37,290 bases of DNA from an uncultured Lamprocystis sp. (GTDB lineage: Bacteria; Pseudomonadota; Gammaproteobacteria; Chromatiales; Chromatiaceae), in the NCBI RefSeq assembly GCF_903933125.1, contig NZ_CAIZIZ010000045.1:1-37290 (forward strand). Direction: 5' to 3'. Of the stretch, positions 14,261 through 36,860 are shown piece after piece. The notes beneath the pieces were generated by a model. The model was not told the DNA's origin, made no database searches, and saw only the letters and a program-made list of their open reading frames with translations. How positions within the stretch are numbered: the first letter of the stretch is position 1; each line of letters begins with the position of its first letter. The translations under genes were made by a program, and so were the position numbers.

Positions 14261-15337
14261 ATGCGTCTGAAAGCCACTCTGCTGCTCGGCAGTCTCATGA
14301 CCCTCGGCATCGCCAATCCGTCCCTCGCGGCCGATTGGCAGGTCTTACCCGATCAAGCCCCATTCCCGGCCGATAACCCCCCGAACGAAGCCAAAATCGA
14401 ACTCGGCAAGATCCTGTTTTTCGATCCGCGGTTCTCCGAGCACGGCACCCTGTCATGCAATTCCTGCCACAATGTGATGGCCGGCGGGGACGACAACCGC
14501 CCCAACTCCATCGGTATGCACGACGCCCGCGGCGGGCGCAGCGCACCGACGGTCTGGAATGCGGCCTTTTACTCGGTCCAGTTCTGGGATGGGCGCGCCG
14601 CCACCCTGGAGGATCAAGCGAAGGGACCGGTGGCCAACCCCATCGAGATGGGCATGGCAAGCCTGGATGAAGCGATGGCCCGGGTCGCCCAGATTCCCGG
14701 TTACCAGCCGCTGTTCGAGGCCGCCTTCCCGGGCGAGACCAACCCGCTCACCGGCGACAATGCAGTCAAGGCGATCGCCGCCTTCGAGCGCACCCTGATC
14801 ACCCCCAATTCGCCCTATGACCGCTATGTGAAAGGCGACGCCGCGGCCATGAACGCGCAGCAGATCCGCGGCATGGAGACCTTCGATACGCTGGGCTGCA
14901 CGACTTGCCATTCGGGGGCCAATTTCAGCGGTCCGACACTGCCCATCGGAACCGGTTTCTTCATGAAGTTTCCCACCTATCCGGGCAGTACCTATGACGT
15001 CGCCTACAAGCTGAGCAAGGATCCGGGCCGCTACGAGGTGACCAAGAAAGAGGCCGATCGGCACCTGTTCCGGGTACCCACGCTGCGCAACGTCGCCCTG
15101 ACTGCACCGTACTTCAACAACGGCCAGGTACCCACCCTGGACAAGGCGGTACAGGTCATGGCCAAGGTCCAGTTGAACAAGGACCTCACCGAGGCCCAGA
15201 CCGCGGACTTGGTGGCCTTTCTCAACGCGCTGACCGGCGAATTCCCGGAGATGACGCTGCCGCGTCTGCCGGGAACACCGAACATGAGCGTGATCCCGCC
15301 GGTTGACCCGCACCTGAAGGTCAAGGCGCATCGTTAG
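14261..15337 (+). CDS. ccpA: Diheme cytochrome c peroxidase (CcpA/MauG family)
   Basis: AAGGAG lies 8-13 bases before the ATG; the 358-residue product has a signal peptide ending near SLAA and two heme motifs, CNSCH at 66-70 (peroxidatic domain) and CTTCH at 213-217 (electron-entry domain). The family landmarks LGKILFFDPRFS, GGRSAPTVWNAAF, QFWDGRAATLEDQA and FRVPTLRNVALTAPYFNNG are all present. Bacterial cytochrome c peroxidases reduce hydrogen peroxide to water in the periplasm with electrons from small cytochromes c. The length matches typical enzymes. It follows the efflux gene and should share its promoter with the operator at 13128. Two hairpins sit 10 bases after the stop. The SHP/diheme cytochromes nearby could donate electrons, an inference. 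Confidence 0.95.
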   Translation: MRLKATLLLGSLMTLGIANPSLAADWQVLPDQAPFPADNPPNEAKIELGKILFFDPRFSEHGTLSCNSCHNVMAGGDDNRPNSIGMHDARGGRSAPTVWNAAFYSVQFWDGRAATLEDQAKGPVANPIEMGMASLDEAMARVAQIPGYQPLFEAAFPGETNPLTGDNAVKAIAAFERTLITPNSPYDRYVKGDAAAMNAQQIRGMETFDTLGCTTCHSGANFSGPTLPIGTGFFMKFPTYPGSTYDVAYKLSKDPGRYEVTKKEADRHLFRVPTLRNVALTAPYFNNGQVPTLDKAVQVMAKVQLNKDLTEAQTADLVAFLNALTGEFPEMTLPRLPGTPNMSVIPPVDPHLKVKAHR

Positions 15338-15347
15338 GCGCTTCTCG

Positions 15348-15395
15348 TTCCCACGCTCCAGCGTGGGAATGCCGTCCGGCCGCTCCAGCGGCCGG
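15348..15395. terminator. Two tandem GC hairpins after the peroxidase gene
   Basis: TTCCCACGC / GCGTGGGAA (15348-15369) and CCGGCCGC / GCGGCCGG (15376-15395) form consecutive stems, both with the loop TCCA. A third palindrome, GGGTACGC / GCGTACCC, lies at 15419-15437. None has a long T-run. The first is a widespread intergenic repeat in proteobacteria, so a terminator role is only likely. Confidence 0.55.
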
Positions 15396-15500
15396 TGGCA
15401 CCACTTGAACATCCCGTAGGGTACGCATCGCGTACCCGCCAAGCCGCAGCCACTGCGGGGACTCGGCGCGAGACGTGTACAATGCGCCGATTTATTGCGA

Positions 15501-15746
15501 TCACGCTCCGCCACGATAGAGTTGCGCGGGATTGGCATCAACGAATCGGGCCATCGCCTCCTCAATTGAGGAGGCTCCTGAGATCAGTCGCTCCTCTCCG
15601 ATCCGGAGAGCGCTGTTGGCGGCGTTATAGCCAGGCTCTGCCATCCGCCGATTCCCAACCCATGCCGCGCCGCCCCTCCTGCGGAACGGCGCCTTCACCG
15701 GCAGCTGGTTAGTATTCTCAAGACGTGTGATCGCATATGCATTCAT
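15501..15746 (-). CDS. Possible 81-residue hypothetical protein
   Basis: The ATG at 15746 has a good AGGAG nine bases upstream. The product begins MNAYAITRLENTNQLPVKAP, has a basic Gly/Arg stretch (FRRRGGAAWVGNRR) and ends with a helix-like IEEAMARFVDANPAQLYRGGA. I do not recognise it, and it has no signal peptide or membrane segment. Support comes only from the ribosome-binding site and from a direct-repeat operator 104 bases upstream, the same distance as the operator lies from the cytochrome b start codon. It may be a fragment of a decayed gene; coding character is modest. Regulation by the nearby two-component system is possible. Confidence 0.35.
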   Translation of the reverse strand: MNAYAITRLENTNQLPVKAPFRRRGGAAWVGNRRMAEPGYNAANSALRIGEERLISGASSIEEAMARFVDANPAQLYRGGA

Positions 15747-20286: not shown

Positions 20287-23193
20287 GTGACCCCCGACCA
20301 GTTCATCGACAAGTGGAAAGATGCAACCCTCAAGGAGCGCTCGGCCTCGCAAGAGCATTTTCTCGACCTCTGCCACCTACTGGATGAACCGACGCCGGCA
20401 CAGGCCGACCCGTCCGGATGCTGGTACTGCTTTGAAAAGGGCGCCGCCAAGGCTGGGGGAGGGGACGGCTGGGCGGACGTGTGGCGCCGCAACTGTTTCG
20501 GCTGGGAATACAAAGGCAAGGGGAAAGACCTCAAGGAAGCCTTCAAGCAGCTTCAGCTTTACACCCCTGCGCTGGAGTATCCGCCGCTCTTGATCGTCTG
20601 CGACCTGGACCGGATCGTCATCCATACCGCCTTCACCGGGACGGTGCCGGATGTGCATGTCCTGGCCCTGGAAGACCTGCGCGACGCCGGTAAGCGCCGG
20701 CTGCTGAAGTGGGCCTTCAGCGAACCCGAACGCTTGCGGCCAGGTCAGACCACCGCGGCCCTGACTGAGACCGCTGCCGGCCAGTTCGGCGCCCTCGCGC
20801 AGGCCCTCCGCGCCCGCGGACACGACCCCTGGACGGTCGGGCACTTCTGCATCCGGCTGCTGTTCTGCCTGTTCGCCGAGGACATCGAGCTACTGCCCCG
20901 GCAGATGTTCACCCGGCTGCTGGATGCCGGACTCAAGGACCCGGCGAGCCTGTCCGCGATGCTGGAGGATCTGTTCGGCGCCATGGCGACCGGCGGCCGT
21001 ATCGGCTTTGAGCCGGTGGACTGGTTCAACGGGGGCTTGTTCGACTCGCGCGACGCGCTGCCGCTGGAACGGGACGACATCAAGACGCTGCGCGCGCTGG
21101 CCGGGCTCGATTGGTCGGCCATCGAACCCTCGATCTTCGGAACGCTCTTCGAGCGTGGGCTCGATCCGGACAAGCGCAGCCAACTGGGCGCCCACTACAC
21201 CGACCGGGGTTCCATCATGCGGCTGGTGGACCCGGTGGTCCTCGATCCGCTACGGGATGAGTGGACCGCGAAGAAGGTGGAGATCGAGGGGCTGATGGCG
21301 AAGGCGGCCGCGGCGAAGTCGCCCGCCGCGCGCACCAAAAGCCAGAACGAGGCATTGGGCGTACTTCAACGCTTCCTGTCCAGGCTCGCAGACTTCCGGA
21401 TCCTCGACCCTGCCTGCGGCTCCGGCAATTTTCTGCTGCTATCGCTGCTCGGACTCAAGGACCTGGAGCATCGGGTCATCCTGGAGGCCGAGACCCTGGG
21501 GCTGCCCAGGGCCTTCCCGATGGTCGGGCCGGAATGCGTCCTGGGGATCGAGCTGAACCCCTACGCGGCCGAACTGGCGCGGGTTACGGTCTGGATCGGG
21601 GAGATCCAATGGATGCTGTCGCACGGGTTCAGTCTCTCGAAGAACCCGATTTTGAAGCCGCTGAATACTATCGAGCAGCGGGATGCGGTGGTGAATCCGG
21701 ACGGGACCGAGCCGGAGTGGCCGGCGGCGGATGTGATTGTGGGGAATCCGCCTTTCTTGGGTGGGAGCAAGAAGCGCGGCGCTCTGGGAGACGCCTATTT
21801 TGATGCACTCGACGGGATTTATACCGGACGGGTGCCCGCTGGGGCAGACCTGGTCACTTACTGGTTCGAGAAAGCGCGGGCGGAGATTGCGAGGGGGCGG
21901 ATCAGGTATGCCGGATTGGTGGCGACCAACAGCATCCGGCAGCCAGGGAACCGTCCGGTGCTTGATGCAATTACTCAATCAACGCGAATTTTTGACGCCT
22001 GGAGTGATGAAGCTTGGATTAACGAAGGTGCAGCAGTCCGAGTCTCGTTAGTCGCTTTTGGGGTTGCAGAGAAAATCGTTATGCCGCGCCTCAATGGTAA
22101 GTTGGTAACCGAGATTTACAGCGATTTATCAGGAACTTTAGTCGATGAAAAAGCAACTGGCTTTGATTTTACTCTGGCCGCTAGACTCGAAGAAAACAAG
22201 ATTGCATTCCAAGGTACAAAGAAATACGGTAATTTTGATATAAAAGGGGAACTTGCCAGAGTATGGCTGCGCGCACCTAACCCCAACGGCCGTCCGAACA
22301 GTGATGTTGTCAAACCTTGGTTAAACGGAAAAGATGTCGCGAGTCGTGCTTCCGATACCTGGATCATTGATTTCGGAGTCAGTATGCTAGAAGCTGATGC
22401 CGCTTTATATGAGTTACCATTTCAGCACATTCTGACTCAAGTTAAGCCTTACCGCAGTAGCATTAGAAGTGAAATAGCAAAAAAAGAATGGTGGATTCAT
22501 GAAAGGCCACGACCTAGTTTGCGACATGCGATTCAAGGACTTTCCCGCGTTATTGCAACCCCAATGACCGCAAAATACAGGATTTTCTTCTGGCTTGATA
22601 CGCGGATTCTTCCTGACCAGCAGCTTATTGTTATTTCGCGTTCCGACGATACCACCTTCGGCGTTCTGCACTCACGGATTCATGAGTTGTGGTCTTTACG
22701 GATGGGAACCAGCCTTGAGGATCGGCCGCGCTACACCCCAAGCACTACTTGTGAAACCTACCCCTTCCCCCCCGGCCTAACCCCCGCGGACACCGCTAGC
22801 CCCACCGAAGCCCTGGACTCCGGTATCGTCCTCCCGCCCGTGGCCCCTGAGCGCCGCCCTGTCGCCCTGGCTATCGCCGAGGCCGCCCACCGGCTCAACG
22901 CCCTGCGCGAGAACTGGCTGAACCCTTCTGCGTGGGTGGAGCGTATCCCGGAAGTCGTCCCCGGCTACCCGGATCGGATCATCCCGAAGCCTGAGTACGC
23001 GCCAGAGTTGAAGAAGCGGACCCTCACCAACCTCTACAACGTGCGTCCGACCTGGCTCGATAACGCGCACCAGGCGCTTGATGCGGCGGTTGCCGCTGCC
23101 TATGGGTGGAAGGACTACGGGCCGGAGATGGCTGACGAGGAGATTTTAAGGCGGCTGCTGGCGTTAAATCTGGAGCGATCAAAGGAGACATAA
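20287..23193 (+). CDS. Single-chain MmeI-type (type IIL) restriction-modification enzyme
   Basis: The gene uses a GTG start with AAGGAG ten bases upstream; the product has 968 residues. The N-terminal nuclease domain carries D64-x9-E74-Y-K76 (DVWRRNCFGWEYK), the same D-x9-ExK metal-binding spacing as MmeI. A helical spacer follows, then the methyltransferase with motif I DPACGSGNF at 374-382 and motif IV NPPF at 487-490, the N6-adenine type. The target recognition region (about 555-818) and a C-terminal helical domain complete the chain. Such enzymes methylate one strand of an asymmetric site and cut about 20 bases away, needing no separate specificity gene. The recognition-region DNA (about 21,950-22,740) is visibly richer in A+T than both flanks, a sign of domain exchange. 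All catalytic residues seen are intact. Confidence 0.9.
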   Translation: MTPDQFIDKWKDATLKERSASQEHFLDLCHLLDEPTPAQADPSGCWYCFEKGAAKAGGGDGWADVWRRNCFGWEYKGKGKDLKEAFKQLQLYTPALEYPPLLIVCDLDRIVIHTAFTGTVPDVHVLALEDLRDAGKRRLLKWAFSEPERLRPGQTTAALTETAAGQFGALAQALRARGHDPWTVGHFCIRLLFCLFAEDIELLPRQMFTRLLDAGLKDPASLSAMLEDLFGAMATGGRIGFEPVDWFNGGLFDSRDALPLERDDIKTLRALAGLDWSAIEPSIFGTLFERGLDPDKRSQLGAHYTDRGSIMRLVDPVVLDPLRDEWTAKKVEIEGLMAKAAAAKSPAARTKSQNEALGVLQRFLSRLADFRILDPACGSGNFLLLSLLGLKDLEHRVILEAETLGLPRAFPMVGPECVLGIELNPYAAELARVTVWIGEIQWMLSHGFSLSKNPILKPLNTIEQRDAVVNPDGTEPEWPAADVIVGNPPFLGGSKKRGALGDAYFDALDGIYTGRVPAGADLVTYWFEKARAEIARGRIRYAGLVATNSIRQPGNRPVLDAITQSTRIFDAWSDEAWINEGAAVRVSLVAFGVAEKIVMPRLNGKLVTEIYSDLSGTLVDEKATGFDFTLAARLEENKIAFQGTKKYGNFDIKGELARVWLRAPNPNGRPNSDVVKPWLNGKDVASRASDTWIIDFGVSMLEADAALYELPFQHILTQVKPYRSSIRSEIAKKEWWIHERPRPSLRHAIQGLSRVIATPMTAKYRIFFWLDTRILPDQQLIVISRSDDTTFGVLHSRIHELWSLRMGTSLEDRPRYTPSTTCETYPFPPGLTPADTASPTEALDSGIVLPPVAPERRPVALAIAEAAHRLNALRENWLNPSAWVERIPEVVPGYPDRIIPKPEYAPELKKRTLTNLYNVRPTWLDNAHQALDAAVAAAYGWKDYGPEMADEEILRRLLALNLERSKET

Positions 23194-26052: not shown

Positions 26053-26883
26053 ATGCACCTGAAATTCACCAAAATGCATGGTCTCGGCAACGACTTCGTC
26101 GTATTCGATGCCATCCGCCAACAGGTTGCGCTGGATGCGGCGGCCATTCGCCGCCTCGCGGATCGACACCGCGGGATCGGCTGCGATCAGGTGTTGTTGG
26201 TCGAACCGGCGCGTCTGCCCGGCACTGACTTCCATTACCGGATCTTCAATGCCGACGGCAGCGAGGTGGAGCAGTGCGGCAATGGCGCCCGCTGTTTCGC
26301 CCGCTTCGTCCGCGATCAGGGGCTCTCGGACAAAGATGCGATTCCGGTCGGGACCGCCGCGGGAGCCATACAGATCTTCGTCGAGGCGGACGGTCAGGTC
26401 CGGGTGGACATGGGGATTCCGGTGCTGGAGCCGGCCCGCATCCCCTTCCGGGCCGCGAAGCAGGCGCTGGTCTACCGGCTGTCGGTGGATGGACAGGCGG
26501 TCTCCATCGGCGCCGTGTCCATGGGTAACCCTCATGCCGTGCTGCTGGTGGAAGATGCCGACAATGCGCCGGTGGAGCGGCTCGGGCCGCGTCTCGAAAC
26601 GCACCCGCACTTTCCCCGGCGCGTCAACGTGGGTTTCATGCAGGTTCTGTCGCCCGAGCATATCCGGCTGCGGGTCTTTGAACGCGGCGTCGGCGAAACC
26701 CTGGCCTGCGGGACCGGCGCCTGTGCCGCGGTGGTCACCGGACGCTTGCGCGGGCTGCTCGCCGCGCGGGTCCAGGTCAGCCTGCCCGGCGGTGATCTTG
26801 TGATACAGTGGGACGGAAATGGTACACCGGTGCTGATGACCGGACCGGCGCAACGGGTCTTCGAGGGGGAGATCGAGCTATGA
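26053..26883 (+). CDS. dapF: Diaminopimelate epimerase
   Basis: The ATG at 26053 starts [20 protein letters not shown], the invariant N-terminus of DapF; the product has 276 residues (E. coli 274). The two catalytic cysteines are present, C75 in EQCGNGARC and C219 in [10 protein letters not shown], and the [12 protein letters not shown] motif is intact. The enzyme interconverts LL- and meso-diaminopimelate in the cytoplasm for lysine and peptidoglycan synthesis, without PLP. A TTGACA at 25974-25979 could be the -35 of its own promoter. Its stop overlaps the DUF484 gene start by 4 bases. Confidence 0.97.
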
Positions 26884-27734
26884 CCAAGACCAGGACCAAG
26901 CCGGGCACCGAGCCAGCTCAGGCGTCCGTCGACGCGGGAGCAGCGCAGACGGCTGCCGCGGAACAGATGGTGGCCGCCTATCTGCGCGATCACCCGGATT
27001 TCTTTGAACAGAATGCGGCGGTGCTGGCCAGCCTGAGTGTTCCGCACGCGCCGAGCGGTAGCGTGTCCTTGATCGAGCGCCAGGTCAAAGTCCTGCGCCG
27101 ACACCTGGAGGCCGAGCGCAGTCGCCTGGCACAGCTGATTGCCCGCGCTCGCGAGTACGAAGCGCTGTCCACCCGTCTGCACGTGCTGGTGCTGCAACTG
27201 ATCATCGCCCCGGACTTGAAACAGGTTGGTTCCGTACTTCAGGAGGCCCTGATGCGCGAGTTCAGCGCCCAGGCGGTCATGCTCAAACTCTTCCCGCTCG
27301 ACCCGGTGTCCGCGGACGCGGCGCGGGATCCGCTGACTGCCGCCTTCAAGGAGTTCCTCCTGCGCGAGCACGCCCTGTGCGGTCCGCTGGACGAGGAGAA
27401 GAACCGCCTCCTGTTCGGCGACCTCGGCGGTGAGGTCCAGTGCGCCGCGCTGATCCCGCTACGCGGGACCGGCTGTTCCGGCGTGCTGGCCATCGGCGCC
27501 GCCGACCCGGACCGCTTCAAGCCGGACATGCGCACCGACCTGCTGGATCGACTGGGGGAGGTCGTCAGCCATAAGCTGCAGGGACTCCAGGCGTCCTCCA
27601 GGCCACGCGTGGAGCCGTTGCCCGATCCGTTGAAGGCCGCGCTGCCCGTGATGCCGGAGGCGCCGGCACCGAAAAAGCCCCGCGCCCCACGGTCGCGCAA
27701 GCCGAAGGTCGTTGAGGACGTCAGTAGCGAATGA
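26880..27734 (+). CDS. DUF484 family protein (GAF-like)
   Basis: This 284-residue protein is the DUF484 family member always found between dapF and xerC in many gammaproteobacteria. The N-terminal part has [20 protein letters not shown] and [16 protein letters not shown], followed by a coiled coil and a GAF-like domain (about 115-240) with [19 protein letters not shown] and [13 protein letters not shown] basic Pro/Lys-rich tail ([14 protein letters not shown]) could contact nucleic acid. The function is not established; the conserved position next to xerC suggests a regulatory or structural link. Start and stop overlap neighbours as ATGA, so it is tightly coupled to both dapF and xerC. Confidence 0.9.
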
Positions 27735-28636
27735 GCGACGAGGCCGGTCCGATCGAGCCCTTTCTCGCCCACCTTGCCCATGAGCGGCGGCTGGCCGATC
27801 TGTCCATCACCAGTTACCGCGCCGACCTCGAGCGCATCAGCACCTGGCTGACCGATGCCGGGGGCGACGTCGACGCCATCACCCGGCTCGACCAGCCGCA
27901 AATCCGTCGTTACATCGCCTGGCGCCATCGCTCCGGCGTCGGCGGCCGCACCCTGCAACGTGAACTGTCCAGCCTGCGCAGTCTTTACCGCTGGCTGCTG
28001 CGCGAAGGACGGGTGCCCAATAACCCCGCGGTGGGCATCCGTGCGCCTAAGACCCCGCGCAAGCTCCCGGCCACCCTGGATGCGGACCAACTGTGCGGTC
28101 TGCTCGATCGCCCCGTCGATGACCTGCTCGCCATCCGCGACACGGCCATGATCGAACTCTTCTACTCATCCGGGCTGCGCCTGTCCGAGTTGGTCAGTGT
28201 CAATCTGGGCGACATCGATATGGCGGATGCCGCGTTGCGCGTCACCGGCAAAGGCGATAAGACCCGCGTGGTTCCGGTCGGTACCCAGGCACGCGAGGCC
28301 GTTGCGTACTGGATGCGTGTGCGTGCCAACCTGGCGGCCGGCGATGAACCGGCACTCTTCGTCAGCAGCCGGGGCAACCGCATCCACCCGCGCACGGTGC
28401 GCACCCGCGTCGCCCAGTGGGCACAGGAACAGGGTGCGGACCGTCACGTCCATCCCCACCTGCTGCGCCACTCATTCGCCAGCCACCTGCTGGAATCCTC
28501 CGGGGATCTGCGCGCGGTGCAGGAGCTGCTCGGCCACGCCGATATCAGCACTACCCAGATCTACACGCACCTGGATTTTCAGCATTTGGCGCAGGTCTAT
28601 GATCAGGCGCATCCGCGGGCGAAGCGTAAGAGTTGA
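27731..28636 (+). CDS. xerC: Tyrosine recombinase XerC
   Basis: This 301-residue recombinase has an N-terminal SAM-like DNA-binding domain (about 5-90) and a catalytic domain with R150 in SSGLRLSELV, a lysine in the beta-hairpin GKGDKTRVVPVG, the HxxR box HPHLLRHSFASHLL, a second histidine in LGHADIST, and nucleophile Y278 in QIYTHLDF. These are the six expected residues. Together with XerD it resolves chromosome dimers at dif under FtsK control. The gene is last in the lysA-dapF operon, where E. coli has it too. Length and motif spacing (R148, Y275 in E. coli) are normal, so it is the housekeeping enzyme rather than a phage integrase. Confidence 0.96.
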   Translation: MSDEAGPIEPFLAHLAHERRLADLSITSYRADLERISTWLTDAGGDVDAITRLDQPQIRRYIAWRHRSGVGGRTLQRELSSLRSLYRWLLREGRVPNNPAVGIRAPKTPRKLPATLDADQLCGLLDRPVDDLLAIRDTAMIELFYSSGLRLSELVSVNLGDIDMADAALRVTGKGDKTRVVPVGTQAREAVAYWMRVRANLAAGDEPALFVSSRGNRIHPRTVRTRVAQWAQEQGADRHVHPHLLRHSFASHLLESSGDLRAVQELLGHADISTTQIYTHLDFQHLAQVYDQAHPRAKRKS

Positions 28637-28737
28637 TAGCGCCCGGGAGCCGTTCACTCATAGGCTAAACAAGTCCATTAGGGGATGCCTTTGGGGCCTT
28701 GATCATCGTTCCGGCCGCGATCAGTTCCGAAATTTCT

Positions 28738-28861
28738 GGCCTTGATGGTAATCCCGGCCAGCGGCGTGCGTAGTCAGGGCTTCCAGCCCTGACCGTGTCA
28801 GGCCAGGATGGCCTGACTACGCATTCGGCGAGCTCAAGTGGCCGGAATCTTGATCGAGGCC
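28738..28861. repeat. 124-bp palindromic element with cruciform potential, copy B
   Basis: This is an inverted copy of the element at 23335-23458. A further partial end (GGCCTTGATCATCGTTCCGG, 28695-28714) sits just upstream, as if an older copy had been interrupted. Position: between the convergent xerC and solute-binding genes, where a terminator would be expected. Confidence 0.85.
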
Positions 28862-28907
28862 GCCTTTGGCATCTCGGTCGTTGTTTCACTTATTTCTGAC
28901 CATTTAC

Positions 28908-30059
28908 CTATCGGCTCTCGATCAGATGCTTGCGCAGCAGTTCCTTTTTGATCTCCTCATAGGTCTGCTTGTCGATATAGTTGTTCTTGTACAGCGACTC
29001 CGCCTCTTTGAGCTTGCGTTTGAGTTCATCGCCCGCTGCCGGACCCTTGGGCGGCACCGGGGCTGCCGCCGCCGATTTGTCCAATGACGGTATCCGCAGG
29101 GTCGCGCCGACGTTGAGGACATTGGCGTATTTCACCGTGTCCCGGTTGGCGGCATAGATGACGGGCCAGCGCGTCGGATCGTTGTAGAACGCCAGTGCGA
29201 TCCGCGACAGGGTGTCCCCCGGCTTGACGACATAGGTGCTCAGTGTCTCGGTCTTGACCGGTTCGGGTTCCATGTTCGGATCGAACTTGGAGTATTTCCC
29301 GATGATTCGGGCCAGAGTGCCGTTGTTCTTGATCTTCGTCAGAAACTCATTGATGAAGCCAAGCAGGTCGTTGTCCGCTTTGTTGACCCCGATGCCGTAC
29401 TGATCGGCCGACAGGGTGCCGTCCAAGACGAGGAGACCAGGGTTTTGAGAGGCATAGTGCTCGAGAAACACCTTGTCGTTGATGAGCGCATCCGTCTTGC
29501 CGCCGGTGAGCGCGGCATAGGTATCGGCGGTCGCGGTCACCAGGAAAAAATTGGCACCGGGCATCAGTTCGCTGATGAGCCGTTCGCCCGTACTGCCGCG
29601 GGTCGCCGTGACTGTCTTCCCGGTGAGATCCTTATAACTCTTGATCCGATCCTGGTCCTTGGCTCTGATCATGACCGCCAGTCCGGTCGTGAAATAGGGG
29701 TCGGAAAAGTCGATCACCTCCAGCCGCTCACGAGTAATGGAGAAGCTGGAGATCACCACATCCACTTTCTGTTTGAGCAGCAGCTCTTCGCGGGCTTTCG
29801 CGCCGGGGAGAATGGTCCACTCCGGTTTGACGCCCAGCGCATCGGCCAGCGCTCGCCCGAGGTCCGGATCGATGCCGACCAGTTCTCCGCGTTTGTCCCG
29901 GTACTGGATGGGCGGAATGTCATCCCGGATGCCGATGTTGATCACCCCGCTGCTCCTGATCTCAGCGAGACCGCGCGCTTCGGCGAGGCTCCACGGGAGC
30001 AGAATCGGTGCCAGGCCGAGGACAACGAGCAGCAACAGCCGGCGGTTGCGTGATTTCAT
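28908..30059 (-). CDS. Periplasmic solute-binding (SBP_bac_3) protein fused to LysM
   Basis: This 383-residue protein has a signal peptide (residues 1-28). A family-3 solute-binding domain (about 30-265) follows, with INIGIRDDIPPIQYRD, GIDPDLGRALADALG, DVVISSFSITRERLEVIDFS and GTLARIIGKY. Next come a LysM domain (about 278-326; YVVKPGDTLSRIALAFYND and NVLNVGATLRIPS) and a C-terminal SHOCT-like helix pair (SLYKNNYIDKQTYEEIKKEL). Such domains bind amino acids or small ligands; LysM would tether the protein to peptidoglycan, so this is a fixed sensor or scavenger rather than a free transport protein. No permease gene is nearby. AGGAG lies over the end of the preceding gene, 10 bases before its start, so it is co-transcribed with the zinc-ribbon/FGE-like gene and divergent from the tubulin-like gene. 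Confidence 0.88.
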   Translation of the reverse strand: MKSRNRRLLLLVVLGLAPILLPWSLAEARGLAEIRSSGVINIGIRDDIPPIQYRDKRGELVGIDPDLGRALADALGVKPEWTILPGAKAREELLLKQKVDVVISSFSITRERLEVIDFSDPYFTTGLAVMIRAKDQDRIKSYKDLTGKTVTATRGSTGERLISELMPGANFFLVTATADTYAALTGGKTDALINDKVFLEHYASQNPGLLVLDGTLSADQYGIGVNKADNDLLGFINEFLTKIKNNGTLARIIGKYSKFDPNMEPEPVKTETLSTYVVKPGDTLSRIALAFYNDPTRWPVIYAANRDTVKYANVLNVGATLRIPSLDKSAAAAPVPPKGPAAGDELKRKLKEAESLYKNNYIDKQTYEEIKKELLRKHLIESR

Positions 30060-30069
30060 CGCATGCTCC

Positions 30070-30981
30070 TTAATTGGCTGCCGGATCGGCGTCGCGGCAG
30101 GTTCGGAATCCGATGTAGTGATGATAGGTGCCTTTGGTGCCGAGGCGGTTCACCCGCTTCAGATCGGCGAGCGGGCGGCCTTCCCGGTCCCAATACCAGT
30201 AACCCCCCAGGAAAGCGGCCTCTTCGGTTCCCGAATCCACCCATTCGCTGACATTGCCAACCATATTGAGCAGGCCGTGGCTGTTCTCGTCGCGGTCATC
30301 GCTGACGCTGCGGGGCTTGTCCATGGTACTGCCGCCCAGCGCGGCCTTGGCGGGGTCGCTCAACTCATCACCCAGGGCAAAGAGCCATTCGCTTTCCCGG
30401 CACAAGCGTTTGCCGCTCTTTTCGGCGAATCGTTTGGCGTTCTCCCAGGTGATGTCGACCACCGGCAGGTCATCGGTGAAGCCTTTGGGGGAACGGTAAC
30501 CAGGGAACGCTGACCGATAGTCGCCGACGCTCACTTCAGTTCGGTCGATGAAAAAATCGGCGAGCTTGACCATATTCGGATCAACCGCCGCGGCAGGGGG
30601 CGGCGGCGGACCGGGTTCCGCTTGGGGCGGCGGGAGAACAGGCTCCGCTTGGGGCGGTGCCGGCAGCACCGATTCTGTCCGCGGCGGCGGCGGCTCCATC
30701 GGCTCCGCGACCGCCGGTGGTTCCGGTGCGGCCGCGGGCATCAGGTAGTCCCACAGGAACGTCATCGCCGCCACGGCGATGGCCGCCAGCACGACCAGGG
30801 CGATGACGCCGCCGATCAGCTTAGAGCGGTCCTTTCCCGGCTGGCTCACCATGAGACCCCGGCCGCATTCCGTGCAGACCGGCGCTGCACCCTCGGGGAT
30901 GCTGACGTCGGCCCCCGTGTCGGCCAGGGTGCAATTTCCGAAATTGGTGCATTTGCCGGTGCGGCCGGTCTGTTCGGCCAT
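30070..30981 (-). CDS. Zinc-ribbon, single-helix, Pro-rich, formylglycine-enzyme-like protein
   Basis: GGAGG precedes the ATG at 30981; the 303-residue product has an N-terminal four-cysteine region (KCTNFGNCTLADTGADVSIP ... PVCTECG) that could bind zinc in the cytoplasm. One membrane helix follows (about 57-79, LIGGVIALVVLAAIAVAAMTF), then a Pro/Glu-rich periplasmic stalk (82-130), and finally an FGE-sulfatase (SUMF1) fold domain (about 135-300). That domain has FIDRTEVSVGDYRSAFPGY, LPVVDITWENAKRFAEKSGK, RLCRESEWLFAL, LLNMVGNVSEWV and YHHYIGFRTCRD. FGE-type domains often serve as binding modules; I cannot tell whether the copper-site cysteines of true formylglycine enzymes are present. A role as a transmembrane connector between cytoplasm and envelope fits the architecture. 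Confidence 0.85.
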   Translation of the reverse strand: MAEQTGRTGKCTNFGNCTLADTGADVSIPEGAAPVCTECGRGLMVSQPGKDRSKLIGGVIALVVLAAIAVAAMTFLWDYLMPAAAPEPPAVAEPMEPPPPRTESVLPAPPQAEPVLPPPQAEPGPPPPPAAAVDPNMVKLADFFIDRTEVSVGDYRSAFPGYRSPKGFTDDLPVVDITWENAKRFAEKSGKRLCRESEWLFALGDELSDPAKAALGGSTMDKPRSVSDDRDENSHGLLNMVGNVSEWVDSGTEEAAFLGGYWYWDREGRPLADLKRVNRLGTKGTYHHYIGFRTCRDADPAAN

Positions 30982-31188
30982 GGTCAACCTCCGAAAACGG
31001 ATGCCGATGAACGGACAGGACATCCGAACGGCGGCTACACAACATGATGCGTGATCATAGCGACGCCGGGAGCGGCGGGCAAGGACGCATGACGAATCAC
31101 GGGCGCTTGCCCCATAATCACCCGACAGCCGGGCGCTCCCCACGGGGACAGGCTGTCAACTTGCCCTGTTTAACCCTGAGAATCGGCT
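30982..31188. promoter_or_regulatory. Divergent control region of the tubulin-like locus
   Basis: The 207 bp between the FGE-like gene and the tubulin-like gene must hold both promoters. CATAAT near 31113 is a possible -10 element for the plus strand. GCCGGGAGCGGCGGG and CCGACAGCCGGGCGC are G/C-rich and could form weak structures. No clear operator was recognised. Confidence 0.4.
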
Positions 31189-34188
31189 ATGAAGAACCAC
31201 CTGGTCATCGGTCTGGGCGGCACCGGGGGCAAAATCCTCCGTGCCCTGCGCAAGAACGTCTTTCAGGAGTACCGCGGCAGCGAGCCCGACCAGGTCAGGC
31301 TGCGCTATCTGTATGTCGATTCGAGCAAGGAGATGATGGCCATCGACGACGCCACCTGGCGTATTCTCGGGGAAAGCGTCCAACTGGCCACCCGCAGTCA
31401 GCTCCTGATCACCGGCGGGAACCTCAACCAGATACTCGACAATATCAGCGGGCATCCGAATATCCAGCCCTGGATCGGCAGCCGCGACCAATGGAAAGAC
31501 ATTCTGAGCAGCATCGTCGGGGAGACCCTGGGCGGCCAGAAACGCCGGCTCGGGCGCTTTCTGTTCGCCTGCAAGGCGCGCCAGTTCAAGGATCAGCTTA
31601 AGCAACTCGCCGGCGAACTCAGCACCGGCGGCGATGCCAGTGTGACCTTCCACGTCTGCTGCGGTCTGGCCGGCGGGACCGGCAGCGGTGCGGTGATCGA
31701 TACGGTGGCGCAGATTCGCGGGCTCTATCGCGATCCGCGCATGTACCGCATCGTGATCTATGCCCTGCTGCCCGAGGAAATTCCGAATCCGAATTGGGAC
31801 ACCGGCAATTACCACGCCAATGGCTATGCTGCGCTGCTCGAATTGAATGCGCTGAGCGTCGGCGCCTATCAGCCCCACGATATCGCCGAGCGGGGTGAGC
31901 GGCTCGCGCTCAGCGATCCGTTCAACGGCTGTTATCTCTTCTCCAATCGCAACGAAAACGGCCTGCAAGTGGACGTCGACAAGACGCTGCCCGGTGTCGT
32001 CGCCGATTTTCTGTTCCAGAAGCTGGTCGCCGTGCGCAATGCGGAGGCGATGAAACTCCTGGAGAAGATGGAGAATGCCGAGAACGGCGACGGCACCGCG
32101 GAGACCCGCCCGGGCAGCACCGCCCCTTTGCGCTCCAAGCGCTTTCTCACCTTCGGTATCAAGCGCCTGGCAGTCCCCGAGATGGAGATCCGGGAATATC
32201 TCACCTACCGCTTCGCCCGCCAGGCCGCCCTGCAACTGCGCTATAACAATTGGGACGATACCTTCGGGTTCCGGGATGAGCCGCGCAACCAGGATTTCGG
32301 CGAGTTCGTGCGCGACAGTCAGACACTGGAGCGCTGGTCGCTGACCGACGAGCACCTGACGCTGTCGCGCGGCATTCTGTCCGAGGAGATCAACAATAAG
32401 AAATGGAAGCCCATCGTCAACGAATGGTTGGATGTGCTGCCGCAACTCATGGGGCTGGTGCAGACTCAGGACGACAAGGTCTGGATTAATGAGATCGATA
32501 AGCTCATGGCGCAGCGCTTCGCGGAAAGTTACCGCGGCCTCGGCGTGCGCAAGTTCTATGAAACCAAACTTCAGGCGCGCAAGGACCATGTCCGTGAATT
32601 GCGCCGCCGGGTCGAGGGCGAGCTGTTCGATGAGTGGAAGAACGGCGTCAAGTCCATGCAGGATATCACCCGGTGTCTGGCTGCCCTCATCGCCGCGCTG
32701 GAAGAGCGGCTGCTGGGCACGGACGACCGCATCACCCGCGCCAAGAACAACGCCGACAGCGCCGAACAGCGGGTGGCGGTCAATCGGGCCGACTATGCGC
32801 AGGTCGGTCTGGTCTCGCAACTGCTCGGCAAGCGCCGCAACCTGCTCGATCTCCAGGGCGAGGCGCTGCGGGAACTCTATACCGCCCGCACCCAGGCGGA
32901 AGCCTGGGCCTTCGCCAAACGCTTGCTTCAGGAAGCCGTCAACGAGTTCAATGCGCTGGCGGCCGACGTCGCGGCCTGCACCCGGCTGGTGGATGAGTCC
33001 ATCAAGGAATTCAAGGAGCGCATCGACGCGCGCATCAACGATGGTGAAACACCTGATCTGCGCCAATCACTGGTGCGCTTCTACAATGCGGAGAACGTCC
33101 GCGGGTTCGCGCGCGATCTGGAGAAAGACCGCGGCGAACAGACCCGGCAGTCGCAGGCGGTGCGTCTCGCCCTCATCGAACAGATTGCCGCCGATCCGTC
33201 ATTTTCCGCCTTCCAGGCACGGATCAGCCGCCAGCGCTTCTTCGATGTGATGGAGCAGCGCTGTGCGCAAAGCTCACAGGCGGCGCATGACGCGCTGGTC
33301 GCGTCCAACCGTGACCGTCGTCCATTGCTCGGGGTCAACATCATCGGCCAATTGGAGCGGGAGTATTCGGGACGCACCGACGAGCTCAAGAAATTCATTC
33401 ACGATCTGGTCAACCAGGCGGGGAATTTCATCGAGTTCGACTCCCAGGCCGTCACCATGGGCGCGGCCAAGACCAAGGTCTCGCAGTTCCTGGTCATCCT
33501 CCCGGCGACCCCCGAGTTGGCTCAGTTCAGTGAAGACCTGGAGGCTCTGTTCCGCGACAACTTCCGCGGCGACATCCCGGTGGCCATCATCAAGAGCGAG
33601 ACCAAGCCCAATGAGATCACCCTGCTCGGGCTCACCAACCTGTTCCCGCTGCGGCTGGCCAAGGCCACCCGCTTCCTCAAGGAGCAATACGAGCGCCGTC
33701 TTGCCCAGGTCGACAATCCGGACCGGCTGAAGCTGGAGTTGCACGGCGAAGGCGACGGCACCCAGTGGCCCGAGATTGTCCTGGCCGATGAACGCGCCCA
33801 ACGCGACAAGGCCCTGCCGTCCCTGCTGCTGGCCAAGGCGCTGGGCCTCATCAGTACCGTCACCAGTCCGACCACGGGCCTCAACGAACTTTACCTGATC
33901 AGCGAAGACGCCGACGGCCTGCCGGTGCGCACCCGCCTCGGTAAGGGGCTGCCGGAGGTGTTCGAGACCATCGACCTCGCCGCCGCGCAACGGCTCGTCG
34001 ATGCGACCCAGGCGCAGTTGGCGGGAGACGCCTTCCGGCACGTCGACCAGCGTGCCGCGCTCCAGGCCGCCGTGCGTGATGAGTTGAAGCAGATCCTCGC
34101 CGAGCGGCGCAACGACTTCGAAGACCCGGTCTATCGCCGCTTCGAGGCGGCGGCGCGCGGGGCGATTCAGATTCTTAAGGGCGGTTGA
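31189..34188 (+). CDS. Large tubulin/FtsZ-superfamily GTPase (Tubulin_2-like)
   Basis: This 999-residue protein starts with a Rossmann-type nucleotide-binding fold: HLVIGLGGTGGKILRALRK (residues 4-22) and, at 162-167, the GGTGSG core of the tubulin signature within CGLAGGTGSGAVIDTVAQI. A large tail follows the GTPase-like half. Residues about 504-620 are strongly helical and coiled-coil-like, and 660-990 form a further alpha/beta region. The overall plan matches the Tubulin_2-type proteins annotated in many bacteria, which are related to FtsZ and tubulin and proposed by comparative genomics to remodel membranes or form filaments; experiments are few. No signal peptide or membrane helix is present. 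It is divergent from the FGE-like/LysM gene pair and stands alone on its strand. GTP binding is inferred from motifs; polymer formation is unproven. Confidence 0.85.
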   Translation: MKNHLVIGLGGTGGKILRALRKNVFQEYRGSEPDQVRLRYLYVDSSKEMMAIDDATWRILGESVQLATRSQLLITGGNLNQILDNISGHPNIQPWIGSRDQWKDILSSIVGETLGGQKRRLGRFLFACKARQFKDQLKQLAGELSTGGDASVTFHVCCGLAGGTGSGAVIDTVAQIRGLYRDPRMYRIVIYALLPEEIPNPNWDTGNYHANGYAALLELNALSVGAYQPHDIAERGERLALSDPFNGCYLFSNRNENGLQVDVDKTLPGVVADFLFQKLVAVRNAEAMKLLEKMENAENGDGTAETRPGSTAPLRSKRFLTFGIKRLAVPEMEIREYLTYRFARQAALQLRYNNWDDTFGFRDEPRNQDFGEFVRDSQTLERWSLTDEHLTLSRGILSEEINNKKWKPIVNEWLDVLPQLMGLVQTQDDKVWINEIDKLMAQRFAESYRGLGVRKFYETKLQARKDHVRELRRRVEGELFDEWKNGVKSMQDITRCLAALIAALEERLLGTDDRITRAKNNADSAEQRVAVNRADYAQVGLVSQLLGKRRNLLDLQGEALRELYTARTQAEAWAFAKRLLQEAVNEFNALAADVAACTRLVDESIKEFKERIDARINDGETPDLRQSLVRFYNAENVRGFARDLEKDRGEQTRQSQAVRLALIEQIAADPSFSAFQARISRQRFFDVMEQRCAQSSQAAHDALVASNRDRRPLLGVNIIGQLEREYSGRTDELKKFIHDLVNQAGNFIEFDSQAVTMGAAKTKVSQFLVILPATPELAQFSEDLEALFRDNFRGDIPVAIIKSETKPNEITLLGLTNLFPLRLAKATRFLKEQYERRLAQVDNPDRLKLELHGEGDGTQWPEIVLADERAQRDKALPSLLLAKALGLISTVTSPTTGLNELYLISEDADGLPVRTRLGKGLPEVFETIDLAAAQRLVDATQAQLAGDAFRHVDQRAALQAAVRDELKQILAERRNDFEDPVYRRFEAAARGAIQILKGG

Positions 34189-34250
34189 AGCCGTGTCCCA
34201 AAAAATGGTGTAGATAAGTCTGCCATTTCATCGCCTGAACCGCCTGCGGA

Positions 34251-34631
34251 TCAAGACCCGACCTCGGCCCGATAGCGCCAGCCTCGCGCCTCGGCCAAGA
34301 CGCGCAACTGCTTGGCCTTGCCCTCGACCTGCCGCTTCTGAAAGGCGGAAAAGTCGATGACCGCATGCTCGGGGAAGGGAGCGGGATCAGGTCGCGCAGG
34401 CAAGTCGAGCCCTGCGCACTCGGCAACGGTTACGGCCTGAACACCGCTGGATTGGAACCCCAGGCTGCCCGTGAAGTGCGCATAGGCGGCGCTGGGGTTG
34501 ATCAGATCTCCGTCGTAGACCGAAAGACACCCCGCGTCCTTGGGGGTGGGACGGAACGCTTGGGAGGAGACGCGGCCGTCTTGGATGAAGTTGCGATTAA
34601 TCTGGCGCAACAGTTCGGTTTCGGCCTTCAT
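34251..34631 (-). CDS. Conserved hypothetical protein of 126 residues
   Basis: I recall this small family as a recurrent hypothetical protein; its name and function are unknown to me. Visible blocks are LLRQINRNFIQDGRVSSQAF, RPTPKDAGCLSVYDGDLI, AVTVAECAGLDLPARPDP and PFPEHAVIDFSAF. It overlaps the end of the upstream 379-residue gene by 4 bases (ATGA), is cytoplasmic, and ends with a basic helix (KAKQLRVLAEARGWRYRAE). It belongs to a minus-strand run starting with an HsdM fragment and an ATPase. Toxin-like, antitoxin-like or defence roles are possible from context only. Confidence 0.7.
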   Translation of the reverse strand: MKAETELLRQINRNFIQDGRVSSQAFRPTPKDAGCLSVYDGDLINPSAAYAHFTGSLGFQSSGVQAVTVAECAGLDLPARPDPAPFPEHAVIDFSAFQKRQVEGKAKQLRVLAEARGWRYRAEVGS

Positions 34632-35767
34632 GCGCGCTCCACAGCAAGTCCCTGCTGCTGCTCAATTTCCGCAGTGATCATGGCCCAAGCCACGGGTTGC
34701 GCCAAGTCCAGTTCCTTCCAGTCGTCGACGTGGGTCCCGGTGTCAAGTGAATGCCACTCGCCGGCCCGGCGATCCAGGTCGATTTCCAGGCTAATCTCAT
34801 GAGTGCCGAGCGACCATTCTGCTTGGACGCCTCCTTCGGCAGTGGGATAGAGATAGGGTGGCGGGAGCAGGTCCGGGTAGTGTGAGCCAAAGCACCGGGC
34901 GAGCCAATCCAAGCCCTGCGGGCTAGGGGCGAATCCGCGGCCGTCGAGCCAGCCGTTTTTTAACCCACGCAGGTCGTCCAGCCTGGCCGCCACGTCGTTG
35001 GCGTCCAGGATGCCGATGTGCTCGACCTCGGCCAAGCCCTGCAGCCGTTCGTTGCGGTTGAACCGCCCGATGCCCCTCACTTGCACCCGGGTGCCCTTCT
35101 GGAACCCATTGAACGCTTCCAAAACCGTCGGCAGGTGTTGCAGAGCTAGGGGTGAAGTGACCCGCGGGCCGTTGGTCACCTGAAGATCGAAGGTCATGCG
35201 GTCTTGGTCGGCCTCCGGGATGGTGCCGCGCAACGTGACCTCTTCGGTCAGTTCGCGCGTCTGGGATGAGGCGAGCAAGAGTTTGCGACGGCTGGAGCGG
35301 GTCAGACGCGCCGGGCGATTCACATTCCGGGGATCGAAGATAATGGCCTCGCCCTCGCGCAGACTGCGGCCGATGCGGTCGAAATAGCCGAGCAAGGACT
35401 CAGGAAGGTAGTCCGAAATACGGCCGTCGCGGTTGGCGGCATCAATGGCCCCAAGGATGTGCTCGCGGCCCTGCTCGAAATAGACTTGACTACCGGGTGG
35501 GAAGAACCCGTCTGATTGGGCAAATAAGTCGATCCGCGGGATAGCGCTGCCCGGCTCGACCGCCGTCAGCTTGAGTGCGATGCCGTCGGTGAAGCCGCGG
35601 GGAGTGCGCTTTCGGTCCTCGTGATCCTGGAGATAGCGCCATTTGGCAACCTCAATGACCATTTCCTCCAGCACGGCCAGGTCCTTGAGCAGTTCCAGCG
35701 GGATCGCATGCGCGTCGAAGCGCTCACCCTCCATGCGCGGGCTCAAGAAAGGGATGGGATCGATCAT
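34628..35767 (-). CDS. Conserved hypothetical protein of 379 residues
   Basis: I do not know a function for this protein. It is cytoplasmic, with an N-terminal block DAHAIPLELLKDLAVLEEMV and EVAKWRYLQDHEDRKRTPRG, then GFTDGIALKLTAVEPGSAIP, a middle beta-rich region (about 175-260), and a C-terminal part containing LRGLKNGWLDGRGFAPSPQG and YLYPTAEGGVQAEWSLGTHE. The GW.DG...APSP...P.PEGG..EW pattern recurs in many small prokaryotic proteins linked to toxin-antitoxin or phage context. Its start codon has the same upstream string as the ATPase gene (CGGAGGT.ACCGCATGATC), suggesting both starts derive from a shared or duplicated leader. It lies just 4 bases after the ATPase stop and so is co-translated with it. 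Confidence 0.72.
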   Translation of the reverse strand: MIDPIPFLSPRMEGERFDAHAIPLELLKDLAVLEEMVIEVAKWRYLQDHEDRKRTPRGFTDGIALKLTAVEPGSAIPRIDLFAQSDGFFPPGSQVYFEQGREHILGAIDAANRDGRISDYLPESLLGYFDRIGRSLREGEAIIFDPRNVNRPARLTRSSRRKLLLASSQTRELTEEVTLRGTIPEADQDRMTFDLQVTNGPRVTSPLALQHLPTVLEAFNGFQKGTRVQVRGIGRFNRNERLQGLAEVEHIGILDANDVAARLDDLRGLKNGWLDGRGFAPSPQGLDWLARCFGSHYPDLLPPPYLYPTAEGGVQAEWSLGTHEISLEIDLDRRAGEWHSLDTGTHVDDWKELDLAQPVAWAMITAEIEQQQGLAVERA

Positions 35768-35771
35768 GCGG

Positions 35772-36860
35772 TTACCTCCGATCGGAGAGCTTCATCGTAT
35801 CGGGGATGCCGACATCGCGCAGCGGCCGAGTCTTGGTCACCCCGGTGACCTCACGCTCCAGGAGGAGGCCGCGGTCGCCGCCGAGATAGTCGATCACCTC
35901 GGCGTGGTGAGAGACGATCACCACCTGCGGCAGCCCGTCGCCGATGGCATCCTCAGCGCAAAGGAGCCATGGCTGAATCTCCGCGGCCGCCAGGAAATTG
36001 TCAGGCTCGTCCAGGAAGAGAAAACGCCCGGACTTATCCAGGAAATGGAGCAGGCCGTAAAGGACCAGGAGTACGCGTTGGCCGTCGGATAGCTCTTCGA
36101 GCGCCAACTCGTATTCTTCCTTACCGGAACCGAAGACCGCCACCAGTGTCCTGGCCTCAGACCCAACCTTTTCGAGCCTGAGCTTCTGGAAGCCTGGGAT
36201 GGTCGCCTGGAGAACCGCCCGGTAGTCAAAGCTGTCTCCGTGCTCCTGAAGCAGATGCCGGTACCAGGATGAAAAATTCTCCCCATTGCGACTGAGGGCC
36301 TGGCTCTCTTGGGGGGTATCGTTGACGAATGCGGCCGGGTTCAACCGGCAGACCTGGACCCTGCGCATGAGTTCAAGAAAGGCCGTCAAGCGCTGGTTAT
36401 CGTGGCGCGGCGGCACGCGGGCAAGGGCAGATTCGCTCCACTCAGCCGCGAACATGGGTCCCTCGCTGAGATTGTCGCGATACAGCTGTACGTCACCGTT
36501 CTCAAACAGGAACAGAGGTCCATCCGGAACTGCGAGTCGCTCTTCGATAATCCGCGCCCGGCGTCCGCCCGATTCGTGCTGAACCTTGAGGCGGTAGCGC
36601 ATTTCCTCGCCGCCGACCTGGATGTGTAACTCGACGACTTGGGTGTCACGGTCGCTCCAGCGGGTGCGGCTGGCGTAGGGCAGGACGGATTTGTCGTTGA
36701 CCTTGGCTTGCCCGGAAAGCAAGCGCTGCAGCCCATCGACCACATCGAGCACCGACGACTTGCCCGATCCGTTGAGGCCCGCTAACAGGTTGAAATTCTC
36801 AAGCTTCAGTTCGAAGTTCACCAGGCAGCGGAAGTTATCGACATAGAGGCGCGTGATCAT
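35772..36860 (-). CDS. AAA/SMC-like ATPase (OLD-type, no TOPRIM domain)
   Basis: This 362-residue ATPase begins with ITRLYVDNFRCLVNFELKLE and has Walker A GLNGSGKSS (about 29-37), a coiled or helical insert, the ABC-type signature LEELSDGQRVLLVLYGLLHF, Walker B FLFLDEPDNFL, and the switch histidine in VVIVSHHAEVIDYL. This is the RecF/SMC/OLD-like class used in several phage-defence systems (for example Gabija GajA, Septu, PARIS), but here no TOPRIM nuclease is fused and the partners are the two hypothetical proteins downstream. The start overlaps an HsdM N-terminal fragment (ATGA). Likely a DNA- or nucleotide-sensing motor of a defence module; that is inferred from family and context. All ATPase motifs are intact. 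Confidence 0.85.
   Translation of the reverse strand: MITRLYVDNFRCLVNFELKLENFNLLAGLNGSGKSSVLDVVDGLQRLLSGQAKVNDKSVLPYASRTRWSDRDTQVVELHIQVGGEEMRYRLKVQHESGGRRARIIEERLAVPDGPLFLFENGDVQLYRDNLSEGPMFAAEWSESALARVPPRHDNQRLTAFLELMRRVQVCRLNPAAFVNDTPQESQALSRNGENFSSWYRHLLQEHGDSFDYRAVLQATIPGFQKLRLEKVGSEARTLVAVFGSGKEEYELALEELSDGQRVLLVLYGLLHFLDKSGRFLFLDEPDNFLAAAEIQPWLLCAEDAIGDGLPQVVIVSHHAEVIDYLGGDRGLLLEREVTGVTKTRPLRDVGIPDTMKLSDRR

Follow-up and report, generated by a model that had tools for sequence, protein, structure and literature searches.

Makarova and Koonin described FtsZl1 in 2010 as a protein without known function (PMC2875224), and it forms one family with Tubulin_2 (PMC9871819). Membrane remodelling was proposed as its role (PMC2875224), in keeping with what a preliminary description of the DNA treated here said of Tubulin_2-like proteins, namely that a role in the remodelling of membranes is proposed for them and that experiments are very few. 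According to the accessible portions of the 2010 paper, its authors could not detect any resemblance to the C-terminal domains of FtsZ and tubulin, and they held neighbouring genes of the solute-binding protein (SBP) type to be too little conserved to count; in comments printed with the paper, the reviewer G. Jekely noted that a TRAP-type periplasmic gene adjoins FtsZl1 in Polaromonas (PMC2875224). A study from 2023 put Tubulin_2 to one side, as an FtsZ-like group with a history of its own (PMC9871819). What partners might such a protein have? The locus considered here lies on a 37,290-nucleotide stretch of DNA from an uncultured Lamprocystis sp. (the window; it is contig G000:C45 in a genome of 7.1 Mb), where a Tubulin_2 gene diverges from two envelope genes exactly as the preliminary description placed them, the domain make-up that it gave to the latter two being borne out by Pfam and a structural model.

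31189-34188, forward strand: Tubulin_2/FtsZl1 protein, 999 amino acids (Pfam, AlphaFold2 model, VIA match to CetZ)
30982-31188: divergent intergenic region, 207 bp, between the tubulin gene (forward) and the head-FGE gene (reverse)
30070-30981, reverse strand: Cys4 head, one membrane helix, Pro-rich stalk and FGE-fold domain, 303 amino acids (the head-FGE protein; FGE, formylglycine-generating enzyme)
28908-30059, reverse strand: periplasmic solute-binding domain with LysM, 383 amino acids (Pfam; the SBP-LysM protein)

The recurrent unit is the tubulin together with a Cys4-headed membrane protein, and the FGE and SBP-LysM parts seen in the window are one local version of what surrounds it.

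Linkage of the Cys4 head to Tubulin_2 genes

A profile of the head (consensus CxNFGNCxxAD...CPECGxxL) was searched against six-frame translations of 80 tubulin loci, the best 80 of 229 related stretches from one scan with an alignment of ten tubulins. It found the head in 68 of them, within 600 bp of the tubulin gene in 65 and within 950 bp in the other three, usually just downstream and on the same strand. The head-positive loci fall into nine phyla (40 Pseudomonadota, 9 Verrucomicrobiota, 9 Bacteroidota, 5 Acidobacteriota and one each of five others), with labels that come from the genome records, many of these genomes being bins, and that may include some errors. Because this profile had been trained on the 80 loci, a second one was built from five heads of the same genus as the window; it recognised the head in 50 of 76 other loci, beside the tubulin in all 50. 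(L052, L053, L054 and L056, which repeat the genomes G005, G002, G006 and G005, are counted within the 80 and stand outside both the 76 and the set of 84 head proteins used below.)

Neither profile found a head in any of 16 control Tubulin_2 loci of other clades, 15 of them from the same genus and one from genome G022, with little flanking DNA in L049, L050 and L051; L046-L048, none with a head match, were left out of the controls, and L037, which has two heads, was treated as a head locus. When whole genomes were searched, the head turned up in 7 of the 55 relatives, each of which also has Tubulin_2, and once only in the window's own genome, beside the gene of the 999-residue protein. In a sample of 398 genomes of the window's phylum, the head was found in six and Tubulin_2 in eight (seven over the family cut-off), and in one of these genomes, G297, the head and tubulin genes lie 73 bp apart. 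Weaker head matches in this sample came from G307 and G243, and another weaker match, in G336 (L163), was not recovered among the called genes at E 0.1.

The wider idea that zinc-ribbon heads mark all Tubulin_2 loci was rejected on the 16 control loci. There, no enrichment of CxxC-type double knuckles was seen close to the tubulin: of the genes lying up to 5 kb from it, 3 of 77 carried them, against 2 of 52 among the more distant ones. Two proteins encoded directly after Tubulin_2 genes of other clades (L036, 13160-13876; L050, 340-1050) do have a double CxxC zinc-ribbon N-terminus, followed by a stretch that, judged by eye, we take to be TerD-like. At L059, a tubulin open reading frame (ORF) of 1360 amino acids, matched on query residues 1-868 and without a head, has a TIR-AAA protein downstream (14080-15618).

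The outer part of the head protein is exchanged

A strong hydrophobic segment lies within the first 170 residues in 80 of the 84 head proteins. What follows varies: Pfam assigns PBP_like_2 to 24 of the 84, OmpA to 23, FGE to 8 and SBP_bac_3 to one, and a VWA domain is present on the second head protein of L037 and on the protein of L118, whose head was recognised by eye only. Counted by locus, with profiles built from clusters whose members were identified by Pfam, 42 of the 80 loci encode a solute-binding domain at most 3 kb from the tubulin (PstS-like in 25, TAXI-like in 13, SBP_bac_3 in four). In 41 of these 42 it sits on the head protein itself or on the next gene; the remaining match (L120) is about 2 kb upstream of the tubulin and not with a head. 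OmpA occurs within the same distance in 24 of the 80. Several fusions join the pieces in one chain. An acidobacterial protein (L110) consists of head, membrane helix, SBP_bac_3 and LysM, that is, parts of both partners in the window; one from the window's genus (L031) joins head, membrane helix, PBP and OmpA; and fusions of head and FGE occur in Thiotrichaceae or Beggiatoa-like bacteria (L088, L089 and L107).

In a tree of 52 tubulins, made by a quick method with a midpoint root and containing two long branches (L130 and L037), the window's tubulin groups with those of L031, L055, L057 and L058, which have partners of the PBP and OmpA type, with support of 96-100. Seven partner labels, assigned by hand (20 rows as 'other', the VWA label of L070 from a match below the cut-off, those of L123 and L129 from a sequence cluster shared with L118 and L130, Pfam having found nothing in L123; L127, listed as VWA, is not among the rows), require 16 changes on this tree, against a minimum of 6 and a mean of 26.7 after shuffling. 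The partners therefore follow descent and yet have been repeatedly replaced. Since the window's tubulin groups with relatives of the PBP and OmpA type, the head was probably retained as a new outer part took the place of the old one.

Other arrangements were met near the tubulins. The head is also found on an M48 peptidase (L089, 8502-9653) and on ankyrin repeats (L090, 6240-7139). At L118, L123, L129 and L130 the tubulin lies near VWA-type proteins (by Pfam in L118 and L130, by cluster in L123 and L129) and then an ABC ATPase, after which L123 and L130 (Pfam) and L129 (cluster) encode an FtsX-type permease, making an FtsEX-like pair beside the tubulin. In L047 and L048, a tubulin that is divergent but falls within the same broad group has after it an OmpA protein with a Cys-rich head, then a large membrane protein that by eye is a coiled coil, and then an OmpA/MotB-like protein. 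Upstream of the tubulin in 18 of the 80 loci there is a membrane protein of about 258 amino acids (cluster N2), hydrophobic near both ends by eye, which is not part of the trio in the window and, in the one member scanned (L031), had no Pfam match over cut-off.

The trio within the genus

Among the 55 relatives, eight genomes have Tubulin_2, and seven of these are within the window's genus of eight genomes. The preliminary description had proposed looking for the three genes as neighbours elsewhere, and neighbours they are, in five of the eight genomes of this one Chromatiaceae genus (the window, L029, L030, L032 and L033). The window and L029 have the same flanking genes on both sides of the trio. 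L030, whose contig begins next to the SBP gene, shares those on the right; in L032 and L033 the trio is set among other genes, and it has thus been kept together in two surroundings. By a simple counting method, four orthologues of each gene compared with the window's copy gave ratios of nonsynonymous to synonymous substitution (dN/dS) of 0.05-0.11 for the tubulin, 0.20-0.28 for the head-FGE protein and 0.13-0.23 for SBP-LysM. All three are under purifying selection. As a unit, a specific three-gene system was nevertheless rejected as too narrow, because the trio was found in one genus and the tubulin with its head is widespread. Two more Tubulin_2 paralogues in the window's genome (G000:C302, L027; G000:C549, L028) belong to other clades and have other neighbours and no head.

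The tubulin and its predicted split C-terminal domain

31210-31233, forward strand: T1-like motif GLGGTGGK, residues 8-15 (sequence)
31672-31689, forward strand: T4-like signature GGTGSG, residues 162-167 (sequence)
32071-32103, forward strand: acidic loop ENAENGDGTAE, residues 295-305, candidate T7-type catalytic loop (conservation; assignment putative)
32242-33477, forward strand: putative helical insert, about residues 352-763 (secondary structure of the model and match span)
32530-32559, forward strand: insert motif YRGLGVRKFY, residues 448-457, candidate head-docking site (conservation)
33478-33786, forward strand: later half of the tubulin C-terminal domain as predicted, beyond the insert, about residues 764-866 (model, match range)

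That the long protein belongs to the tubulin superfamily, as had been proposed from its motifs, is agreed by a profile search (Pfam Tubulin_2, PF13809: E 1.4e-70, 238.8 bits, cut-off 27) and by its predicted structure. Both glycine loops of Tubulin_2/FtsZl1, T1 and T4, are present at the residues listed; G8, L9, G10, G11, T12, G13 and G14 are kept in at least 90% of 52 aligned relatives (47 rows from loci with a detected head, five from loci without), and G162, G165 and G167 are invariant in all 52. The nearest named relatives, among the best 80 of the 229, are in Lamprocystis purpurea and Thiodictyon-type Chromatiaceae.

An AlphaFold2 model built with 52 sequences has a mean predicted local distance difference test score (pLDDT) of 90.1 and a predicted template modelling score of 0.75. 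Its best solved match by Foldseek is CetZ (E 8.1e-7). VIA-align places 310 of the 330 residues of CetZ1 (4b46) on residues 2 to 839 of the model (Z 27.1, root mean square deviation 4.0) and up to 359 residues of tubulins on a stretch reaching residue 866 (Z about 25); among the matches listed, those to CetZ and tubulins (4b46, 3zid, 5o09) have Z of 24.8-27.1. The matched part, residues 1-866, leaves a tail of 867-999. The two-domain tubulin fold, C-terminal domain included, is thus matched in the predicted model, and so is a long helical middle with two extended helices (490-537 and 548-613), after which come mostly helices with some strands. Because only 310-359 residues align over a span of about 840-866, and because a strand (764-772), a helix (775-791) and two further strands (798-803 and 809-819) follow the insert, the C-terminal domain seems to be present but split by an insert of about residues 352-763, the boundaries being approximate since VIA-align reports the first and last aligned residue alone. 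CetZ and tubulins share this predicted fold; the 999-residue protein differs from them by an identity of 12-18%, an insert of about 410 residues, a long C-terminal tail and the lack of a recognisable canonical T7 motif. Searched against PDB sequences, the tubulin alignment reached no better than E 0.18, with a beta-tubulin.

In FtsZ and tubulin the T7 loop reads NxDxx[DE] and follows helix H7. Its candidate counterpart here is the conserved ENAENGDGxxE (E305 in 52 of 52 rows, E298 and N299 in 50, D301 in 35), which on conservation may be a T7-type loop around E305. Within the insert, R449, G452, V453 and F456 are invariant in all 52 rows, and the conserved RxxGVxxFY motif is a candidate docking site for the head: its strict pattern occurs in 43 of the 52 aligned tubulins, against none of 18 from those loci of the same genus and of G022 where the head was not detected, a contrast that is confounded with clade, head presence and clade being inseparable.

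The proposed anchor and the SBP-LysM protein

30847-30975, reverse strand: Cys4 head, about residues 3-45 (head profile, E 1.2e-16)
30742-30825, reverse strand: predicted membrane helix, residues 53-80 (AlphaFold2 helix)
30091-30573, reverse strand: FGE-fold periplasmic domain, residues 137-297 (Pfam 137-250, five-orthologue alignment)

The length of 303 amino acids is counted from the ATG that the orthologues support, the mechanical ORF and the gene caller both beginning further upstream. The four head cysteines are C11, C17, C36 and C39, and four are present in all 84 head proteins, a feature for which the search itself selects. The head is modelled as compact and with confidence (mean pLDDT 95-96 at residues 11-40), its matches to zinc-binding PDB chains are short only, and it may be called zinc-ribbon-like, zinc being a putative ligand; a true zinc ribbon holds one zinc between two knuckles that have four cysteines in all. 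For the membrane helix, mean pLDDT is 78 at residues 51-60 and 97 and 93 over 61-80. The periplasmic domain matches FGE-sulfatase (PF03781, E 7.2e-16). True formylglycine-generating enzyme has a catalytic cysteine pair. In the window and four orthologues, C194 and C295 are the only cysteines of the domain and lie far apart; the catalytic pair is therefore absent. A sulfatase-maturing enzyme was accordingly rejected, and the domain, which shares its family with that enzyme but not the pair, is probably binding or structural in role.

Ten bp separate the head-FGE gene from that of the SBP-LysM protein, both on the reverse strand. The latter starts with an N-terminus that looks signal-like by eye and contains SBP_bac_3 at residues 40-257 (E 3.7e-32, 111.3 bits, cut-off 26.4) and LysM at residues 276-324 (E 9.4e-8, 32.3 bits, cut-off 20.9). 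As in proteins of the MltF type, SBP_bac_3 is joined to a peptidoglycan module; unlike them, it has LysM in place of the lytic transglycosylase and shares an operon with a putative tubulin anchor, and the NCBIfam MltF model scores far under its cut-off of 354 (9.2e-16, 57.3 bits).

Just downstream of the tubulin gene, on the reverse strand at 34628-36860, are two genes, for a candidate defence protein (PADLOC PDC-M32A, E 7.5e-149) and for an AAA_21 ATPase, a pair found also in L029 and L030, where a 183-residue gene without a PADLOC match splits it. At 20287-23193 a 968-residue protein matches a PADLOC type IIG restriction enzyme-methyltransferase (E 1.6e-292).

A proposed tether to envelope sensors and its alternatives

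From the gene linkage, the domain content, the fusions, the swapping of partners around the head and the purifying selection, it is proposed, with a probability of roughly 0.5, that the head holds the tubulin at the inner membrane and links it to sensors of wall or solute. In the window, the cytoplasmic 999-residue protein would have a tubulin fold whose C-terminal domain is broken by a long helical insert. The head-FGE protein would be its inner-membrane anchor, with a cytoplasmic zinc-ribbon-like head that binds the tubulin, perhaps at RxxGVxxFY, a helix crossing the membrane and a Pro-rich stalk holding the outer domain in the periplasm. SBP-LysM would sit on peptidoglycan and bind a small ligand, perhaps an amino acid or a muropeptide. 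Ligand or cell-wall state could then pass through the FGE domain, the helix and the head to the recruitment or nucleotide state of the tubulin; that regulated assembly of the tubulin is the output we regard more tentatively, at less than even odds. Of the original suggestion, that the envelope pair senses or anchors something outside and the cytoplasmic protein assembles in response, the sensing or anchoring fits the anatomy of head, membrane helix and periplasmic part as well as the domain fusions; the three-gene unit that it named was too narrow, the tubulin with its head recurring instead.

Several observations count against the tether-and-couple proposal. The head is absent at threshold in 12 of the 80 loci: in four of these the contig ends within 100 bp of the tubulin, and in L118, L123 and L129 cysteine-rich N-termini resemble diverged heads by eye, but the tubulins of L113 and L121 are flanked by sequence on either side and still lack a head, and L059, L075 and L112 have none beside odd or broken tubulin ORFs. 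The main profile was trained on the same best 80 loci in which it was counted, and the five-sequence profile misses 26 of 76. In the phylum sample, head and Tubulin_2 coincide in only two of the eight Tubulin_2 genomes (the window's and G297); the head was not found in G345, G236, G396, G389, G447 or G229, the first two of which have tubulins of other clades that gave only weak matches to the tubulin profile. In L152, L153 and, more weakly, L162 there are heads for which no tubulin was detected in the vicinity; the match in L162 (E 2e-10) adjoins unrelated genes and may be another zinc ribbon. In L150 (4377-6804) a head protein stands beside a 220-residue C-terminal remnant of a tubulin, apparently a decayed copy. 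The insert-motif contrast suffers from its clade dependence, and the motif is carried by L121, L123 and L129, where no head was detected. No canonical T7 motif is recognised in the 999-residue protein. In the head-FGE model, good in the head and helix, the FGE part is poor (mean pLDDT 67.1 for the whole), and a Foldseek search of the PDB with this model gave a list led by FGE chains, none under E 0.001. The pair of FGE and SBP-LysM, finally, was found in one genus only.

How else might these genes be understood? In the remodelling machine of Makarova and Koonin (2010), filaments of the tubulin-like protein would shape the inner membrane by bending or scaffolding it; the head and periplasmic modules would serve only as a link to the wall, with no signal passing. 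Such a machine, which has been proposed for FtsZl1 (PMC2875224), would need an anchor of this kind, and OmpA and LysM modules are wall anchors, but the recurrence of three solute-binding families near the same spot (42 of 80 loci) would be odd for a pure anchor, and we consider this reading unlikely. Close to the suggestion of Jekely would be an accessory of transport, in which the SBP feeds a transporter that the tubulin regulates or positions. The TRAP-type gene in Polaromonas (PMC2875224), the solute-binding domains as such, the TAXI-like genes in 13 of 80 loci, the ABC ATPases near the tubulin (L118 and L123 by Pfam, L129 and L130 by cluster) and the FtsX-type permeases (L123 and L130, with a cluster mate in L129) all speak for it; neither trio neighbour in the window is a permease or a transport ATPase, however, and the PBP domain found on 24 of the 84 head proteins belongs to the anchored chain, mostly with OmpA, unlike a free binding protein for uptake, so that a transport role appears improbable.

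Only the tubulin and the head might belong together, FGE and SBP-LysM being chance passengers of one genus, as might be suggested by their having been seen in that genus only, in five of its eight genomes. Against this speak the persistence of the trio in two flanking contexts under purifying selection, the head-SBP_bac_3-LysM fusion in an acidobacterium and the head-FGE fusions in Thiotrichaceae or Beggiatoa-like bacteria, and we give the passenger explanation little credence. An anti-phage or stress-conflict system, with the tubulin as a scaffold switched by nucleoside triphosphate and the periplasmic domains as sensors, might be read from the patchiness of Tubulin_2 in the phylum sample (8 of 398 genomes, 7 over cut-off), from the candidate defence genes just downstream (34628-36860) and from the TIR-AAA gene near L059. 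No protein of the trio had a PADLOC match at E 0.01, on which ground this reading was rejected, and a periplasmic anatomy is unlike that of known intracellular phage sensors; we would regard it as most improbable.

Relation to FtsZl1 and significance

Compared with FtsZl1 as described in the accessible text of PMC2875224, the 999-residue protein shares the Pfam family, the N-terminal FtsZ-like domain, a helical middle and a mostly helical end, the middle having been published as a coiled coil and resting here on helices 490-537 and 548-613 of the predicted model only. OmpA- and VWA-containing proteins lie near the tubulins of relatives here too; for the VWA of the FtsZl1-VWA-GTPase-OmpA operon, there was no match among the eight window proteins scanned (26808-36860). 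Two differences stand out. No similarity to the C-terminal domain was reported there, whereas the model suggests that this domain is present but split, and a Cys4-headed membrane anchor is not described in the portions of that text seen, although its unnamed families A1-A2 and B1-B9 could include the head protein. Nor was a description of a Cys4-headed Tubulin_2 anchor found in a literature search that was largely at the level of abstracts, subscription papers being outside it. As far as these searches go, the Tubulin_2/FtsZl1 family is known, and the bridging anchor, the recurrent solute-binding modules and the split C-terminal domain are new.

The head protein with its membrane helix is a candidate for the bridge that would answer the objection raised in 2010 to FtsZl1 complexes. 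The solute-binding modules are recurrent (in those 42 of the 80 loci), contrary to their dismissal in the accessible text of that paper, and the predicted split domain bears on whether FtsZl1/Tubulin_2 proteins keep the filament-forming fold. As the head is about 45 residues long and the insert carries a conserved motif, a test of binding would be small and direct. A bolder and in our view doubtful extension would be a receptor-tubulin system spanning the envelope in several phyla, in which a zinc-ribbon adaptor plugs a split-domain, tubulin-fold nucleoside triphosphatase into interchangeable periplasmic sensors (phosphate-, TAXI- and amino-acid-type binding proteins, FGE, VWA) and so controls a cytoskeleton. 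If that were true, and no experimental precedent was found in the literature searched, the state of a solute or of the cell wall would govern a tubulin cytoskeleton.

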